Below, one piece after another: positions 22,046-30,635 of a DNA stretch of 64,000 bases. Within the stretch, counting starts at the first letter, position 1, and each line of letters starts with the position of its first letter. Origin of the DNA: Clostridiales bacterium (GTDB lineage: Bacteria > Bacillota > Clostridia > Lachnospirales > Lachnospiraceae); NCBI GenBank assembly GCA_020860715.1, contig JAJBTU010000038.1, positions 112,969-176,968 of the forward strand, written 5' to 3'. Position numbers and translations under genes: made by a program. The notes under the pieces are model-generated. The model did no database searches and had not been told where the DNA came from. It saw only the letters and a list, made by a program, of their open reading frames with translations.

Positions 22046-22870
22046 TCAGCGGGATGCTTTTTTCTCCAGAAGACTCAAAAGAGCGTACAGCGCTGCCGCA
22101 ATGATGCACAAAATAACAATTGACAGAATTACCCAGTCGAGTTTGAAAACCTGACTCCCATAAATAATGAGATAACCAAGACCCTGCCGTGCACCGATGA
22201 ATTCTCCGATGACGACACCGACGAGACAAAGACCGATATTCACCTTCATAATGCTGATCAGCAGGGGAAGCGTACCCGGAAGAACGACTTTAAAGAGAAC
22301 GTCTTTCTTCGTGCCATGAAGCGTATAGATCAGTTTGATTTTATCCGCCTCCATCTCTTTAAAAGAGGTGTACAGGTTCAGAACAGTGCCAAAGAGTGCA
22401 ACCGAGATACCTGCGACAATGACAGTCCTCCTGTTTGCCCCAAGCCAGACGATCAGAAGCGGCGCGAGGGCAGACTTTGGCAGACTGTTCAGTACAACAA
22501 GGTAAGGTTCCAGAATTTCGGAAAGTGTATCGTTGTACCAGAGAAGAACAGCCATGGTTATGCCAATCAGAACAACCAGCGCAAAACTGATCAGCGTCTC
22601 AGTCAGAGTAACACCTGTGTGCAGGAAAATACTGCCGTCTTTCCACATACTCCGGAACGTATTCCAAAGGCGGGAAGGACTGCTGAAGATAAAACCGTCG
22701 ATCCATCCGAGACGGACAGCCGCCTCCCATAAAAGCAGAAACAGGGCAAAGATCAGAATCCGGGCAGCTGTAATTTGTTTTTTGTGCTTCTGCAGCTTCT
22801 GCAGATACTTCTGCTGATATACGGAGACCGGTTCCTGATCTGTGTATACACGGTTTTCATCATGATTCAT
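22046..22870 (-). CDS. ABC transporter permease (SsuC/TauC/NrtB family)
   Basis: A 274-residue membrane protein with six predicted helices and the BPD_transp_1 coupling segment (LHGTKKDVLFKVVLPGTLPLLISIMKVNIG, the EAA loop, near residues 180-210). The family imports sulfonates, nitrate, taurine or thiamine precursors. Its ATG overlaps the end of the ATPase gene by 11 bases, so both are coupled. The ATPase gene in front is interrupted by the element at 23629-30393, so the transporter is presumably inactive in this state. No substrate-binding protein gene lies next to it. A GC-rich hairpin follows. Confidence 0.85.
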   Translation of the reverse strand: MNHDENRVYTDQEPVSVYQQKYLQKLQKHKKQITAARILIFALFLLLWEAAVRLGWIDGFIFSSPSRLWNTFRSMWKDGSIFLHTGVTLTETLISFALVVLIGITMAVLLWYNDTLSEILEPYLVVLNSLPKSALAPLLIVWLGANRRTVIVAGISVALFGTVLNLYTSFKEMEADKIKLIYTLHGTKKDVLFKVVLPGTLPLLISIMKVNIGLCLVGVVIGEFIGARQGLGYLIIYGSQVFKLDWVILSIVILCIIAAALYALLSLLEKKASR

Positions 22871-23631
22871 GTGGGTTCAGCTCCTTCCATAAATAATTAA
22901 AATAGCCCTGAAATTCCGGCGCACTCCGACGTTCAAGCGGCGTCAGATCCTTCTGGCTGAAAGTTACTTCCAGAACGGATTGGATGCGTGCCGGACGTCT
23001 GGTCAGCACAATCACCCGGTCAGCCATGCTCAATGCCTCTGATAAGTCATGCGTCACCAGAAGGGCGGTCTTCTTTTCCCGGCGCAGGATCGCCGCGACA
23101 TCATTGCATACGGAGAGCCGCGTCTGAAAATCAAGCGCTGAAAAAGGCTCGTCAAGCAGGAGCAGGTCCGGATCCGGTGCCAGCGTGCGGATGAAAGCGG
23201 CCCGCTGGCGCATGCCGCCGGACAGTTCCGACGGTTTTGCGCTGCGAAACCGGTAGAGATCATAATCGTTCAGCATCTGGTCTACATGCCGGAGCGATTG
23301 TTTGTCAGCCCCATGTGCCTGAAAATGTTTTTTCTCACCGGTCTGACGGCAGCCTGCGGAAGCATGATGTGCATTCGGACGGCGGCGCTGCAGTTCCAGT
23401 CCGAGCGTGATATTTCGGTAAATGGTACGCCACTCAAAGAGATGATCTTTTTGCAGCATATATCCGATCTTATCCTGAACGGACGGTTCGGATTTATGGC
23501 GTCTCTTTTTCTCTGTCCGGCGGCTGCCTGTGCCGTTCACGGGAGACGGAAAGCCGGGCGAGCTGTTAAATAAAATGGAGCCGCTCTCAGGAACGAGCAG
23601 CCCGGAAATTAAAGAGAGCAGCGTGGATTTG
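22860..23631 (-). pseudogene. 3' part of an ABC ATPase gene split by a mobile element
   Basis: On the minus strand the frame runs from the element boundary (first codons GGC AAA TCC, Gly-Lys-Ser) to 22860. It encodes about 257 residues: GKSTLLSLISGLLVPESG, the Q-loop YMLQKDHLFEW, signature LSGGMRQR, Walker B LLLLDEPFSALD and H-loop LLVTHDLSEA. It lacks the first 46 residues, including the first half of Walker A. Those are found intact at 30379-30528 beyond the element. Joined at TTGCC the two parts give one open frame of about 300 residues (SsuB/TauB-like). A GTG at 23540 could start a truncated protein without Walker A. Confidence 0.85.
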
Positions 23632-23633
23632 CC
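23629..23633. other. attL core of the serine-recombinase element
   Basis: TTGCC joins host sequence GCGTGGAT on the left with element sequence GATGTGAGAGC on the right. The host part is the complement of the ABC ATPase Walker A codons. The element arm (CGATGTGAGAG, 23633-23643) is the inverse of the arm at the right end (CTTTCACATCG, 30376-30386) with one mismatch. Confidence 0.75.
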
Positions 23634-23691
23634 GATGTGAGAGCAGCGGAAACAAATCGGGCGGTCTTATTCCGGAGATGCAGAGCATTCG

Positions 23692-23883
23692 TTATTTCTC
23701 TTTTTCCATTGCGGTTAGCCTGTCTAAAACTGCCTGTATCTGCTCTTGTGAACAGTTCAGTCTCCTGACAGCCTGCGAAACCAGAAACGTATTTGCCTGT
23801 TCCAGACGCAGACTGTTTTCATCAGGTTTATCGATGTATGTATCAGGGCCATGGAAGACCACACGGATTGGCGCTTTCTTCAT
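23692..23883 (-). CDS. Small protein of unknown function at the left end of the element
   Basis: A 63-residue basic and acidic soluble protein (MKKAPIRVVFHGPDTYIDKP at the N-terminus, LDRLTAMEKEK at the C-terminus). It has a textbook ribosome site, AGGAGGTGATC, 5 bases before ATG. I do not recognise the family. It is read divergently from groES and lies 50 bases inside attL. Its size and place at the end opposite to the recombinase are compatible with a recombination directionality factor, but nothing in the sequence proves this. The last 45 residues look helical. It is antisense to a possible tail of the recombinase in the circular form. Confidence 0.65.
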   Translation of the reverse strand: MKKAPIRVVFHGPDTYIDKPDENSLRLEQANTFLVSQAVRRLNCSQEQIQAVLDRLTAMEKEK

Positions 23884-23985
23884 AAGATCACCTCCTGTAA
23901 ATGGACAGCCATTCCTTTTATTTCCTGTCTACAGAGTATGTACAGTGGGTTGTCCGCTATACAAATCTAAAATAAATATAAATTA

Positions 23986-24012
23986 TTAGCAATCACTGTT
24001 GACGAGTGCTGA
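23986..24012. promoter_or_regulatory. CIRCE operator (HrcA site) of groESL
   Basis: TTAGCAATC, nine bases, GAGTGCTGA. The CIRCE consensus is TTAGCACTC-N9-GAGTGCTAA, so there is one mismatch per arm and the spacing is exact. It overlaps the -35 region of the groES promoter, the normal position for HrcA repression. No hrcA gene is in the element, so the host regulator would control it. Confidence 0.85.
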
Positions 24013-24027
24013 TAGATGTGCTATATT
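23999..24027 (+). promoter_or_regulatory. Sigma-A promoter of groES-groEL
   Basis: TTGACG at 23999-24004, a 17-base spacer and TATATT at 24022-24027. The right CIRCE arm begins at the last base of the -35 hexamer. The leader is about 85 bases and ends in GGAGGA before ATG 24120. Confidence 0.75.
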
Positions 24028-24119
24028 CCGTATAACAAAAAAATAAACGACACCTGAGAGAATTTTATGGAAGAACCCGCAGGCGCCTGCACAAAAAGAT
24101 TGAAGGAGGATTAGCACTT

Positions 24120-24407
24120 ATGAAGTTAGCACCATTAGCAGACAGAGTCGTACTGAAGCAGCGCGAGGCAGAAGAAACTACAAAGTCGGGTATCATCCTG
24201 ATGTCCGGATCACAGGAAAAACCGCAGGAGGCGGAAGTCATCGCAGTTGGTCCGGGCGGTCTTGTGGATGGCAAAGAAGTAAAGATGACGGTAAAGCCGG
24301 GAGACACGGTTATTTACTCCAAATATTCCGGCACGGAAGTAAAGATTGATGAGGAAGAATATATCATCGTAAAGCAGAGCGATATCCTTGCTCTGGTGGA
24401 AGACTAA
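24120..24407 (+). CDS. groES: Co-chaperonin GroES
   Basis: A 95-residue GroES that caps the GroEL chamber as a heptamer. It has KLAPLADRVVLKQ at the N-terminus, the mobile loop around residues 17-30 (EAEETTKSGIIL) and the VKPGDTVIYSKYSGTEVKIDEEEYIIV core. Full length and without unusual substitutions. The gene is preceded by AGGAGGAT, a sigma-A promoter and a CIRCE operator, and followed after 106 bases by groEL. It lies inside the serine-recombinase element, so it may be an additional copy beside a chromosomal groESL, which cannot be checked from this window. Confidence 0.95.
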   Translation: MKLAPLADRVVLKQREAEETTKSGIILMSGSQEKPQEAEVIAVGPGGLVDGKEVKMTVKPGDTVIYSKYSGTEVKIDEEEYIIVKQSDILALVED

Positions 24408-24510
24408 GGTGAATCTGAGAACAGACAGCTGTGCAGGAAAGAAACAGCTGCAAAAATAATTGTGGAAACGACGAATGCCGTTTCCTGTAATTTAAACAGG
24501 AGGCAGTTGA

Positions 24511-26133
<1,623 letters not shown>

Positions 26134-26170
26134 ATTGTGCAGCTGCGAGAAAACACAGCCTCAGATAAGA

Positions 26171-26215
26171 GAGAAAACCACAGAATAGGCAAAGTTCTGC
26201 GGTTTTCCCGTTTTA
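26171..26215 (+). terminator. Terminator after groEL
   Basis: GAAAACCACAGAA (from 26173) pairs with TTCTGCGGTTTTC (to 26207) with one mismatch, then CCCGTTTTAT follows. It separates groESL from lon, which must have its own start or rely on read-through. Confidence 0.65.
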
Positions 26216-26334
26216 TGCGCCCGGCCGGGCAGGAAATTTTGCAGCTGACGCCGCGCCCGGTCTGAAGCAGCGGACAGGGAAGAAGAGAGTTTTCCCGTCT
26301 GATTCTGGATACGAATAAGGAAGGGAGAGGGCTA

Positions 26335-28614
26335 ATGATTATAGTTCCTTGTTATAATATTGTGCTTGCCCCGGAAATAAATCTGTATTTTGCCGGGGAA
26401 TATTTTAAGGAGATTACCCGGGAAAAAGGGGAACAGGGACAGACCGTAGTGTTTTTGATGCTGAAAGAGGACAAGCCGCGGGAGGCAATGCAGCCATATG
26501 ATTTTTATCCGATTGGCATTACCGGTACGATCGAAGCGGTTGACAAAGAAGGAAACGTGAAAATCAAAACCGGCAGCCGCGTTAATATTGATTCGATTGA
26601 CGCTGCAGACGGGACGATTGAGGTAACGCTGAGTAAACGCCAGGATGTAGACGATATGAGTCCGGAAGAGTCCGCAAAACATTTTGACAATGCCCGGATG
26701 GCTTTTATTCAGAGCATTCAAAATACGCAGAACATGCAGTTTCACCTGCTTGCGCGTAATTATATTCAGCAATGGGAATCCCTGGGGGAACTGACAGCGA
26801 CCCTGTCTTATCACCTGCCGATTTCAAATGAAGAAAAATACCTGATCCTGGCGGCTGATACACTTTCTGAGCGGACAGAGCGTATGGAACAGGCGATTTT
26901 CCAGTACGTTGAGGCGGAAAAAGTAAAAAAGGAAGCGGCAGCGGCGCAGCAGAACCAGAACGAAAAGGTTTACCGGGAACAGGCAATTAAGAAACAGATC
27001 GAATTTCTGCAAAATGAACTGGATGAGATGCATCCGGAGAATATTTCTGATGCGCGGAAGTTTGAGAAGAAAATCGAAGCGGCAGGAATGAATGAGACGG
27101 CTCACGCCGAGGCTGTGAAGGTTCTCAACCGCATGAAGCAGGAAGGGCAAGACAGCCATGAATACGGGATGCTGTATGATTATCTGGACTTTGTGACCAC
27201 GCTTTCCTGGAAAAAAGAAGAAATGAAGCTGGTGGATTTAAAAGAAGCGCGAAAAATCCTCGATGCAGATCATTTTGGGCTGGATAAGGTAAAGCGCAGA
27301 ATTGTGCAGCAGCTGGCGGTGATGACGCTGAACCAGAAGCAGTCCGGGTCGATCCTCCTTTTTGTCGGAGCGCCGGGCACCGGAAAGACAAGTATCGGAC
27401 AGAGCATAGCGAAAGCACTGGGCAGAGAATATGTGCGTGTGAGCCTTGGCGGCATCCGTGATGAGGCGGAAATCCGCGGACACCGCCGCACGTATGTCGG
27501 GGCCATGCCGGGACGGATTATGGAAGGCATCAAAAGAAGCGGAGTATCAAATCCGGTGATGGTGCTGGATGAGGTGGATAAGCTGGCAAAGGATTATGGC
27601 GGCGATCCTTCAAGCGCCCTGCTGGAGGTCCTTGACCCGGAACAGAACAGTACCTTTACAGATCACTATATGAATGTCCCATATGACCTTTCGGATGTCT
27701 TATTTGTCTGCACGGCAAATACCACGGACACGATTCAGGAGCCGCTGCTGAACCGCATGGAAGTCATCCAGTTCCCCGGATATACGGCTTCAGAAAAATT
27801 TCAGATCGCGAAACGGCATCTGCTGCCGAAGGCAATGGAAGAAATGGGTATTCATCAGGAAAAACTGAAGGTCTCCGATGCCGCGCTGCGCACGATCATT
27901 TCCGATTACACCATGGAAGCAGGAGTGCGCGGCCTGAAAAAGAGGCTGGATACGCTTTGCCGCACAGCGGCTGTTCGCCTGGTAGAAGGAAACAGGCGGT
28001 GTATATCCGTCTCGCCAGGACAGCTGCAGAAATATCTGGACAGAAAACCGCTTCTGCATGACCATATGCTGGAGCAAAAGCAGCCCGGCGTGGTGACCGG
28101 ACTTGCGTGGACGCAGGCGGGAGGCGAGATCCTGTTTATCGAAGCACTCTTTACCAAAGGGAAAGGAAATGTAATTATAACGGGGCAGCTTGGCGATGTT
28201 ATGAAAGAATCTGTACAGATTGCGGTCAGCCTTGCGAAGAGCAGGTTCCCGGAAAAAGCAGAATTATTTGAGAATCACGATCTGCATATTCATGTTCCGT
28301 CCGGAGCTGTTCCGAAGGATGGACCTTCAGCCGGGATTACCCTGACCACTGCGATTGTTTCCCTTGTCATCGGAAAAGCTGTTTCTCCGAAGATCGCGAT
28401 GACGGGAGAAGTGTCCCTGCGCGGCTGTGTGATGCCGATCGGAGGGCTTCCTGAGAAACTTATGGCTGCAGTCCGGGCGGGCATCAGGACAGTCTTTATC
28501 CCGGTGGAAAACGAGAATGACCTTGATGAGGTTCCATCGGAAGTAAAGAAAAGCCTGGAAATTATTCCGGTTCACATGGTGTCGGATGTGCTGGAAAAGA
28601 CCGGGCTGTGCTGA
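26335..28614 (+). CDS. lon: ATP-dependent protease Lon
   Basis: A 759-residue LonA-type protease. An N-terminal substrate domain (about 1-190) is followed by a coiled-coil helix region (190-270), an AAA+ module with Walker A GAPGTGKTS near residues 344-352 and Walker B VMVLDEVDK, and a C-terminal protease domain with the catalytic Ser in KDGPSAGIT (about 664) and Lys in GLPEKLMAA (about 708). All key residues are present. GAAGGGAGAGG lies before ATG 26335. In this element Lon sits beside GroESL, joining refolding and degradation functions on one mobile segment. A perfect hairpin follows the stop. Confidence 0.93.
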   Translation: MIIVPCYNIVLAPEINLYFAGEYFKEITREKGEQGQTVVFLMLKEDKPREAMQPYDFYPIGITGTIEAVDKEGNVKIKTGSRVNIDSIDAADGTIEVTLSKRQDVDDMSPEESAKHFDNARMAFIQSIQNTQNMQFHLLARNYIQQWESLGELTATLSYHLPISNEEKYLILAADTLSERTERMEQAIFQYVEAEKVKKEAAAAQQNQNEKVYREQAIKKQIEFLQNELDEMHPENISDARKFEKKIEAAGMNETAHAEAVKVLNRMKQEGQDSHEYGMLYDYLDFVTTLSWKKEEMKLVDLKEARKILDADHFGLDKVKRRIVQQLAVMTLNQKQSGSILLFVGAPGTGKTSIGQSIAKALGREYVRVSLGGIRDEAEIRGHRRTYVGAMPGRIMEGIKRSGVSNPVMVLDEVDKLAKDYGGDPSSALLEVLDPEQNSTFTDHYMNVPYDLSDVLFVCTANTTDTIQEPLLNRMEVIQFPGYTASEKFQIAKRHLLPKAMEEMGIHQEKLKVSDAALRTIISDYTMEAGVRGLKKRLDTLCRTAAVRLVEGNRRCISVSPGQLQKYLDRKPLLHDHMLEQKQPGVVTGLAWTQAGGEILFIEALFTKGKGNVIITGQLGDVMKESVQIAVSLAKSRFPEKAELFENHDLHIHVPSGAVPKDGPSAGITLTTAIVSLVIGKAVSPKIAMTGEVSLRGCVMPIGGLPEKLMAAVRAGIRTVFIPVENENDLDEVPSEVKKSLEIIPVHMVSDVLEKTGLC

Positions 28615-28620
28615 TGATTA

Positions 28621-28649
28621 CGGGCAGGGTATCAAAACAACCCTGCCCG
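28621..28649 (+). terminator. Hairpin after lon
   Basis: CGGGCAGGG at 28621-28629 and CCCTGCCCG at 28641-28649 pair perfectly over an 11-base loop directly after the lon stop. It has no T tract. About 60 bases later begins a very AT-rich stretch (28675-28705) that probably holds the recombinase promoter. Confidence 0.6.
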
Positions 28650-28736
28650 GACTGCACGAATGTCAATATGGATTAAATGAAATAATTATTTATATATATA
28701 TAAAGAATCCGTGATGGTACTGAAAAGGAAGCAGTC

Positions 28737-30422
28737 ATGAGGATTTTTCTATATAGCCGTAAATCAAAATGGACCGGCCGGGGTGAGAGCGTGGAGAACC
28801 AGCTTGTCATGTGCCGGGAGTATGTGCTGAATTATATTGAAGGCGCAGACAAAGCTGAAATTACTGAGTTTGAAGATGAAGGATATTCGGGAAAGGATAC
28901 AAAGCGTCCTCAGTTCCGGAAAATGATGGAACGGATCGATAAGGGGGAATGTGAATATCTGGTCTGCTATAAGCTGGACAGGATGGGGCGGAATATTGCG
29001 GATCTTGCCAGTCTGATTGAAAAACTGGATAAAAAGAATATTTATTTTGTCAGCATCAGTGAGCGGTTTGATACAACAACACCGATCGGCAGGGCGATGC
29101 TGTATTTTGCCGGCGTCCTGGCTCAGATGGAGCGGGAGCAGATTGCCGAACGGGTCAGAGATAATATGATGATGCTTGCCAGAAAGGGCCGCTGGCTTGG
29201 CGGCAATACCCCGTTGGGATTCCGGGCGGAGGCAGAGGAGAAGGTTACGGTCAGCGGTAAGTGCAGGAAGAGTTTCCGGCTGGCGCCAAATGAAGAGGAG
29301 ATGAAGACCGTTCATTTTATCTTTTCAGAATATCTGGAGAAACAGTCGCTGACAGGCATTGCAGAATATTTTCTGAGCCATGATATCAGGACAAAGCGGG
29401 GGAAAGAATATACAGTGACGGCGGTCAGGGATATTCTGATGAATCCTGTCTATTGTACAGCGGACAAAGAAGGCTGCGATTATTTTCGGAACCGTGGCTG
29501 TCAGGTCTGTATGGATGAGGAAGAAGCGGATGGCCGGTATGGCATGATTTCTTACGGAAAGACCTCTTCTGCAGAATACAAAAGCAGGAATACAGAACCT
29601 GAGAAATGGATTATTGCCCGTGGACGGCATAAGGGAATCATTTCCGGAGAGGATTTTGTCAGAACGCAGAATCTGCTGGAAAGAAACAAAAGAAAAGGCG
29701 CCGCATGGCGGAAACCGCAGAATTCCATAGCGCTTCTATCCGGACTGCTATACTGTTCCTGCGGACATCCAATGCGTCCGAAGTATTATTCGGCAAATCA
29801 GGTAACGGAAAAAGGCGAACGCAAATTTTCCTATCTCTGTGAATATAAAGATGCGACCCATGGAGAAAAGTGCTCTGTAGAGAACGTGCAGGGGAATCTG
29901 CTGGATGAGCTTGTCTACCGTGAGGTATTGCGCTATGCGGACGAAACCGCAGGCATCCATGCCATACTGGAAGCCTGGAAGAACCGGATGGAAGATACCC
30001 CGGGTGAGCCAGAACGTGCGGCAGAGGTTCTGGAAGAAGAAATGCGAAAACGCAAAAAGGAAATTCAAAACCTGATCGGCGCGCTTGCCAGATCATCCGC
30101 AAGTGAGGCGTTTGTCAGTCAGATCGAAGAACAGATACAAAAGCTGAGCGAAGAGTGTGCCTCTCTGGAAAAGAATAAGGCAGAACTGGGAGAGAACCTG
30201 CCTTCTTACGACTCCTGGCAGCCTGAACTTCTGATGGAACAGCTCTCGTCTTTTAAAAACGCTTTTCATACCCTGAGTGTTCTGGAGAAAAGAGAGTATC
30301 TCAGAATGATTCTGGATAAGGTCGTCTGGGATGGGGAGGAAGCCCATATATTCTGCGGCGCCTCTGTCGCCGCAGCTTTCACATCGCATTGCCACAGCCG
30401 CTCGGCCCGATTACAGCGATGA
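28737..30422 (+). CDS. Large serine recombinase (integrase)
   Basis: A 561-residue large serine recombinase. The resolvase domain spans about 1-150 with nucleophile Ser10 in YSRKS, the helix-E region and the LDRMGRN and AQMEREQIAER motifs. A recombinase domain follows to about 290. The zinc ribbon has Cys pairs near 340/342 and 366/377 (LYCSCGHPM, YLCEYK). A coiled coil covers about 425-480. AAAAGGAAG supports the start. The gene crosses attR: residues 553-561 and the stop are read from host DNA (the complement of the ABC ATPase gene), so its C-terminus differs between integrated and circular states. It is the enzyme expected to catalyse integration at the Walker A codons. Confidence 0.93.
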   Translation: MRIFLYSRKSKWTGRGESVENQLVMCREYVLNYIEGADKAEITEFEDEGYSGKDTKRPQFRKMMERIDKGECEYLVCYKLDRMGRNIADLASLIEKLDKKNIYFVSISERFDTTTPIGRAMLYFAGVLAQMEREQIAERVRDNMMMLARKGRWLGGNTPLGFRAEAEEKVTVSGKCRKSFRLAPNEEEMKTVHFIFSEYLEKQSLTGIAEYFLSHDIRTKRGKEYTVTAVRDILMNPVYCTADKEGCDYFRNRGCQVCMDEEEADGRYGMISYGKTSSAEYKSRNTEPEKWIIARGRHKGIISGEDFVRTQNLLERNKRKGAAWRKPQNSIALLSGLLYCSCGHPMRPKYYSANQVTEKGERKFSYLCEYKDATHGEKCSVENVQGNLLDELVYREVLRYADETAGIHAILEAWKNRMEDTPGEPERAAEVLEEEMRKRKKEIQNLIGALARSSASEAFVSQIEEQIQKLSEECASLEKNKAELGENLPSYDSWQPELLMEQLSSFKNAFHTLSVLEKREYLRMILDKVVWDGEEAHIFCGASVAAAFTSHCHSRSARLQR

Positions 30423-30528
30423 ATTCTCCGGGGAATACCTGAAACGAGATATCGGATAAGGCATAAGTTTCGCCGCTTTTGCTGTGATAGGCGTAGCTTA
30501 CGTCATGAAGTTCAAGTAACGGGTTCAC
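30379..30528 (-). pseudogene. 5' part of the ABC ATPase gene split by the element
   Basis: On the minus strand GTG 30528 (GGAGGTG in front) opens a 49-codon frame: NPLLELHDVSYAYHSKSG, ALSDISFQVFPGEFIAV, then IGPSGCG, which is Walker A up to its last Gly. At that point the element begins and the frame runs into Asn-Ala-Met-stop encoded by the element end. The missing Lys-Ser-Thr and the rest are at 22860-23631. The first three bases of the fragment (30379-30381) are inside the element; the host part ends at the TTGCC core, 30389-30393. It overlaps the 3' end of the recombinase gene on the other strand. Confidence 0.9.
30389..30393. other. attR core of the serine-recombinase element
   Basis: TTGCC preceded by element sequence TTCACATCGCA and followed by host ACAGCCGCTCGG, the complement of the codons for Gly-Cys-Gly and those before it. 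The predicted attB is GCGTGGAT-TTGCC-ACAGCC. The crossover dinucleotide is probably TT, at the centre of the attP inverted repeat, but any base in TTGCC is possible. Confidence 0.75.
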
Positions 30529-30635
30529 AATTACACCTCCAGTTTTTATTCTGTATGTAAATAAAATATGCTTTTTCGAAAAAAGCCGACACTCAAATCG
30601 TCATTAAGCCAGTGGCATTTTCAGAGAGCTCATGG

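Follow-up and report, generated by a model that had tools for sequence, protein, structure and literature searches.

A putative serine recombinase island with a second groESL-lon set in the Walker A lysine codon of an ABC ATPase gene, and its relatives with other cargo

Introduction

The draft genome of a Clostridiales bacterium from the family Lachnospiraceae (GenBank assembly GCA_020860715.1; 2.67 Mb in 39 contigs; G000 in our numbering) contains a 6,760-bp unit interrupting the gene of an ATP-binding cassette (ABC) ATPase inside its Walker A motif, at the lysine codon, and carrying second copies of groES, groEL and lon together with a gene for a large serine recombinase. The window analysed here was a 64,000-nucleotide stretch (positions 112969–176968 of contig C31, JAJBTU010000038.1), to which all unprefixed coordinates refer. 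We consider it probable that the unit is an island inserted by its own recombinase, that this recombinase is one of a clade aimed at the same Walker A and associated with differing cargo, represented here by the second groESL-lon, and that excision would restore the ATPase gene. According to the proposed mechanism, the recombinase would join attP and attB with the crossover at an AA dinucleotide, placing the island into the ATPase gene; the integrated island would break the transporter gene and add an HrcA-controlled chaperone and protease set, and a precise excision would restore the ATPase gene exactly.

Results

The split ATPase gene and the content of the island

The two parts of the ATPase gene were located on the minus strand at both sides of the unit. 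The 5′ part (30389–30531, with a predicted GTG start at 30531) ended with FIAVIGPSGCG, after which the frame continued into NAM and a stop codon, while the 3′ part (22860–23630; PF00005) restarted with KSTLLSLISG and stayed open for 256 codons down to the stop at 22860, overlapped by the next gene, an ABC permease (22046–22870, minus strand; PF00528). The word TTGCC was present at both 23629 and 30389, and removal of one 6,760-bp unit by a script gave a single frame with GPSGCGKSTLL, 302 aa long from its N-terminal start and 74% identical to the intact 283-aa allele of genome G402 (locus L077) over 301 aligned columns with 23 gaps. A first-pass annotation, made from the letters of this DNA alone, had proposed a serine recombinase element splitting this Walker A and had listed groES, groEL, lon, a small gene and a large serine recombinase as its genes; the junctions and the joined frame bore out the former, the gene content was as listed, and the predicted loss of the ATPase frame in the integrated state agreed with the stop after NAM. 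The transporter would presumably be shut off in the cell as long as the island is integrated.

The recombinase gene (28737–30422, plus strand; 561 aa) encoded all three domains of its type, Resolvase, Recombinase and zinc-ribbon (PF00239, PF07508, PF13408), and the serine of its YSRKS motif at position 10 matched the S10 of CD1231, whose catalytic role has been demonstrated (PMC5025042); the protein is a candidate for an active enzyme. The chaperonin and protease genes, all on the plus strand, were identified as groES (24120–24407; PF00166, NF001531 above cut-off), groEL (24514–26133; TIGR02348 above cut-off) and lon (26335–28614; TIGR00763 above cut-off). In Lon, the Walker A motif, GPSAG and the lysine motif were all retained, as was GDGTTT in GroEL. 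A 63-aa open reading frame (ORF) near the left end (23692–23883, minus strand) is a candidate directionality factor: it had no Pfam or NCBIfam match and a protein database search returned only itself, and tblastn found relatives at 55–59% identity in three other islands (G411, G413, G409). Neither relaxase nor transfer genes were found, the family-matching listed ORFs of the unit being groES, groEL, lon and the recombinase.

The uninterrupted gene in relatives

The 3′ ATPase part was matched in 43 of the 47 genomes of the genus, and 30 of these, this genome and 29 others, were checked at the locus for an intact ATPase. An intact Walker A could be read through in one frame in 24 of the 29 other loci, so that the uninterrupted allele proposed to exist in close relatives was found there and a general lack of intact alleles was not seen. 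Among the remaining five, L054 (G403) and L057 (G418) came from recombinase-carrying genomes, L045 and L049 were situated less than 200 bases from a contig end, and L040 (G408) gave no single frame by script, yet its Walker A was intact (L078). The gene order of the window was repeated in L077 with the island absent: permease, ATPase, queH-like gene, phosphotransferase system (PTS)-like gene and argH, the last three names being given from reading the translations. Another arrangement looked for, groESL-lon at the Walker A site with no recombinase, was not present in any fetched locus.

A recombinase clade at the same codon

The search in 397 genomes of the family produced a recombinase match at 1e-60 in 36 genomes. 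Thirty recombinase loci were fetched: all 10 with at least 44% tblastn identity adjoined the 5′ part of this ATPase gene, and none of the other 20 did. The order search (392 genomes) added G713 as a carrier and the genus search (47 genomes) added G411, G409, G413, G403 and G418. Altogether, the clade recombinase was present at this Walker A in 16 genomes, and a tree of 38 recombinases united them in a single clade (support 100/100). L031–L035, L227, L228, L230, L263, L265, L266, L267, L268 and L270 were left out of this tree, and G412 and G415 entered it as "other" without a check of the ATPase gene. Within the genus, the recombinases branched as (G000,((G411,G403),(G413,G409))).

Outside the genome collections, the recombinase had a single match in phage records (34.6%) and six in plasmid records, all below 40%; the scan of viral contigs, which may not include those of this genome, gave one matching stretch and no locus. 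PADLOC gave no match for the recombinase or GroEL and only weak domain hits for Lon.

Several further recombinases were encountered. A distinct serine recombinase, 36% identical, split the same ATPase gene of G345 at another place, near DISEA (L232, 3475–6025); L232 is the wider form of L028, one of the 20 loci not adjoining the 5′ part. In the island of G418 (L276, contig C241), the recombinase adjoined the attL end rather than attR, and the inner order of the island was different. G000 itself harbored a second serine recombinase (L269, contig C25, 254–1873) nearly identical to those of two other species, L262 (G415) and L264 (G412), with branches of at most 0.006, which suggests a recent transfer of another element.

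Attachment sites and crossover

The right end, attR, could be read in every carrier genome but G418 (15 of 16) and attL in 13 (not in G021, G262 and G403), which gave 12 islands read at both ends, that of G409 across two contigs. The base following AA differed between the two ends in all 12 islands and the base just before it in three (G104, G204, G202), and the crossover is therefore likely AA, bases 1 and 2 of the lysine codon in Walker A, corresponding to TT at 23629–23630 and 30389–30390 on the forward strand of the window. The TTGCC word previously taken as the boundary of the segment is indeed shared by both junctions here; however, only its TT probably belongs to the crossover, since the flanking bases of other islands differed from one junction to the other.

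Together, the two island ends made up a 50-bp dyad, imperfect and with AA at its centre, as the predicted attP; its 24-nt arms are at 23631–23654 and 30365–30388. Pairing was possible at 18 of 24 positions, a value reached in none of 20000 shuffles, and over the 12 islands 186 of 288 positions paired against a shuffle mean of 78.6 and a maximum of 106 (5000 shuffles).

Island backbone and cargo edges

Next to the arms, the island consisted of stretches common with other islands at both ends and a cargo unit in between. The left backbone (23631–23961) was homologous to the G411, G413 and G409 islands, with the homology to L272, L274 and L277 ending at 23960–23961 in all three; it resumed at 28724–28743 in the closest matches, delimiting a right backbone at 28725–30388. 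The cargo unit (23963–28616, plus strand), comprising the promoter region, groES, groEL and lon, was delimited independently by homology to chromosomal loci with second copies of groESL (groESL2), with or without lon. This homology began exactly at 23963 in 19 of the 24 loci compared, some of which were one assembly present in two collections; L092 began at 23964, L093 at 23968, L086 and L090 began inside, and L082 was the native locus. In copies with lon it ended at 28601–28616. A strong hairpin-like inverted repeat was noticed by eye 3′ of lon at 28619–28650, just beyond the cargo edge. That groESL-lon is simply the native operon was rejected, with the backbone and the att ends bounding the cargo and the native groESL located elsewhere: the native groEL on contig C14 was 87% identical to the island copy, and the native lon relative on contig C4 was 46% identical.

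At the beginning of the cargo, a CIRCE (controlling inverted repeat of chaperone expression) operator was recognised at 23986–24012 (plus strand) with two mismatches in 18 positions to the consensus, the sole site in the window with four or fewer mismatches. With three or fewer mismatches the operator was also found at the native groESL and, among 15 additional loci scanned, at all but the native lon locus L083; hrcA was present on contig C28. The island groESL-lon is predicted to be controlled by HrcA, and the second set might bring a benefit under stress. A promoter-like pattern, TTGACG-17-TATATT (23999–24027, plus strand), overlapped the operator.

Cargo of the other islands

The 11 islands contained in a single contig from end to end ranged from 2,421 bp (G204) to 29,469 bp (G413). 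The Pfam-identified cargo differed between islands. The smallest encoded a helix-turn-helix protein; the island of G176 a BspA-type leucine-rich repeat protein and a Fic protein; that of G347 a LysE, a cupin-type regulator, a PfkB and a serine-dehydratase-alpha protein, in the same order as in G028; that of G202 a phospholipase-D-like protein, a response regulator, a histidine kinase, an ABC ATPase and an FtsX permease; that of G104 two ABC2-type membrane proteins; that of G713 a sensor kinase and a solute-binding protein; and that of G411 an AAA-ATPase-like protein with PDDEXK and a helix-turn-helix protein. The largest, in G413, encoded PfkB, a thiamine pyrophosphate (TPP) enzyme, IolB, a TIM-barrel protein, glycoside hydrolases GH28 and GH38 and an amidohydrolase, with similar genes in G409. 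For G367 (25.8 kb), G262, G021 and G418, the island genes were inspected only by eye, and the contig of G403 ends just before the recombinase, so that its cargo lies past the contig end. The cargo ranged from almost nothing to a BspA-type surface protein, a two-component/ABC set or genes for inositol and pectin. The description of the island as a mobile protein-quality-control module holds for the presence of groESL-lon on a recombinase island; it does not hold for a dedicated module, since the same clade carries unrelated cargo at the same codon.

The Fic protein of G176 (L068, 9157–9858) scored 344 bits against PDC-S04, a candidate defence model of PADLOC. In G403, the 46 bp between the recombinase and attR (L261, 1766–1811) were an 85% match to window positions 26215–26260, just after groEL.

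groESL-lon outside the island

A groEL match was present in 45 of the 47 genus genomes, with a match at 94–99% in 13 of the 46 others, and lon was found at 1e-180 or better in 36 of these 46, at 59–92% identity. The three genes occurred together in L085, L087, L088, L089, L099 and L114, and at about 65–70% identity in L127 and L142; tblastn detected no recombinase of the island kind in those loci, some of which were short. The surroundings of groESL2 varied between the chromosomal loci of the genus, and no other integrases were noticed beside it by eye in ORF lists, with no family search made on the flanks. The occurrence at varied chromosomal places with no recombinase found nearby points to a cassette with its own history.

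In all 10 genomes for which both values were available, the second groEL was closer to that of G000 than was the native groEL (for example, 92.3% versus 87.6% in G408), and the groEL2 tree rejected two groupings of the native tree in the approximately unbiased (AU) test with p-AU of 0.00019 and 4e-85, both groupings being chosen after the trees were seen and the native comparison being made without G404n. Both results fit horizontal movement of groESL2. Around 80–100 bp of the same promoter region, CIRCE included, preceded lone lon copies in L091, L092 and L093. Two second-groEL copies besides the native one, with different tree positions, were present in G411 (C11, C80) and in G416 (C120, C54).

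Discussion

Weighing the proposed origin

Several observations weigh against the proposed origin or limit it. The recombinase frame of G000 lacks the stop of its relatives, which terminate earlier, at approximately 543–560 codons compared to 561 aa here, and runs over attR into the ATPase gene; moreover, its right attP arm reads GGCGACA, in contrast to GGAAACA or GGCAACA in the others. With the lost stop and the altered arm, the recombinase activity may be reduced. The dyad of G204 paired at only eight of 24 positions. The ATPase gene was checked at 30 of the 40 listed matches of the family search, leaving 10 unchecked, and several matches at around 39–40% from the order search (L227, L228, L230) and the genus search (all except L084, on contig C25 of G000) were likewise unchecked. 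A groESL-lon cargo on this island was not found in any further genome, the cargo of G403 being beyond its contig end. In the cargo, promoter-like sites were no more numerous in the region than in shuffles (6 versus 6.8), and a hairpin-like stretch seen by eye 3′ of groEL makes co-transcription of lon unsure. Finally, neither a circular form nor excision or transfer was seen in the comparison, which covered one genome per species.

The alternatives to the insertion by an own recombinase of the Walker A clade, and the additions to it, differ much in probability. Joining of unrelated DNA by an assembly error is extremely improbable: the assembly is a draft of 39 contigs, but both junctions are interior to a 177-kb contig, and, with the same type of junction read at one end or both in 15 further genomes and the intact Walker A in 24 of the 29 genus loci, the junction is not a chance product and misassembly is unlikely. 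It is also unlikely, if less so, that the island represents a single insertion now stuck as a relic, with a dead recombinase and an ATPase gene simply lost; the altered end of the recombinase frame and the changed attP arm would fit such a relic, but none of the three recombinase domains is damaged, 18 of 24 positions of the dyad can still pair and the ATPase parts contain no stop. A stronger case, still short of an even one, can be made for the cargo coming second, i.e., for an island that arrived with other cargo or none and received groESL-lon in this genome by ordinary recombination. The within-genus recombinase tree is not in conflict with the native groEL tree and yet the cargo differs, and groESL2 occupies many chromosomal places with the island recombinase not found nearby; on the other hand, a potential donor, another chromosomal copy of groEL or lon of this type, is absent from G000, and the left edge is sharp to within about 2 bases.

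As an addition to the insertion by an own recombinase, the island might be retained in a lineage and act as a switch, whose regulated excision would make the transporter gene whole again in certain cells or under certain conditions, in the manner of skin in sigK and SP-beta in spsM, a rather doubtful proposition at present. The ATPase 3′ part was open to its stop in all 12 carriers examined. In G347 and G028, which share the same island, its nonsynonymous and synonymous divergences (dN/dS: 0.029/1.19) were close to those of the permease (0.030/1.04) and the queH-like gene (0.032/1.17); the recombinase had a dS of 1.2, and the cargo (dS 0.86–1.46) and the other host genes (0.34–1.61) had diverged alike. 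A 3′ part constrained like the permease is unlike a gene broken since the common ancestor of the two and suggests a reversible disruption. However, dS of about 1.2 is nearly saturated, and the same pattern would result from recent insertions made separately or from island polymorphism within the species. In G413 and G409, moreover, the ATPase 3′ part (0.048/0.105, or 0.034/0.117 without a variable insert) had a higher dN than the permease (0.010/0.119), so that the constraint may be relaxed in this pair, and the 3′ part of G204 ends in an unusual tail. With comparable doubt, the invariant Walker A lysine codon of this one ABC ATPase gene can be regarded as a family-wide docking port, through which heat-shock machinery, sugar catabolism, surface proteins and stress-sensing pumps would be traded and the transporter reversibly switched off and on.

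If true, this gut-type family of Clostridia would possess an exchange port, similar to that of staphylococcal cassette chromosome (SCC) elements, at a codon which can hardly mutate. Such a port would account for the spread of a single recombinase clade across many genera and would render the trade in cargo traceable, with core chaperonin and Lon genes becoming exchangeable cargo. It would also make off/on switching of a transporter by an island a testable question, and recombinases pinned to a codon invariant in the protein may serve as site-specific tools.

Relation to known systems

SCC elements possess large serine recombinases, target the end of rlmH and vary in cargo between members. Judged by its sequence, the island works like them but is not one of them: it has a large serine recombinase, one fixed chromosomal target, member-specific cargo and no transfer genes seen here, but it is inserted in the Walker A of an ABC ATPase gene and the Ccr models scored far below their cut-offs (CcrB 129.5 of 900, CcrC 112.7 of 900 and CcrA 82.4 of 700 bits).

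In the skin element of Clostridioides difficile (sigK) and in SP-beta of Bacillus subtilis (spsM), a large serine recombinase element likewise splits a gene, its precise excision restores that gene and a small element protein sets the direction (PMC5025042; PMC4191935). Those systems are proven and controlled by sporulation, in contrast to the predicted excision and directionality factor, the split transporter ATPase gene and the exchanged cargo in our case. Clades of large serine recombinases with a single target have been described for a Mg-chelatase/ATP-dependent protease gene and a prolyl isomerase gene (PMC10083194); these resemble the present clade in diverse recombinases aimed at one conserved coding site and differ in the target, here the Walker A lysine codon, and the term "ABC transporter" is absent from the main text of that paper (the supplements being outside the search).

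Mobile second copies of core protein-quality-control genes are also known from the transmissible locus for protein quality control/locus of heat resistance (TLPQC/LHR), which has a dna-shsp20-clpG core with FtsH and others and is located at or near a tRNA gene (PMC7685784). The island differs in having groES, groEL and lon on a serine recombinase backbone and no dna-shsp20-clpG core. A literature search, which did not cover supplements and most subscription papers, found no paper on a groESL-lon island or on a recombinase aimed at an ABC ATPase. Finally, the fdxN element of cyanobacteria is a comparable case of a serine recombinase element inside a gene; its recombinase XisF was the second-best NCBIfam match of the present recombinase, at 121.9 bits against a cut-off of 375, and the gene and the host are different there.

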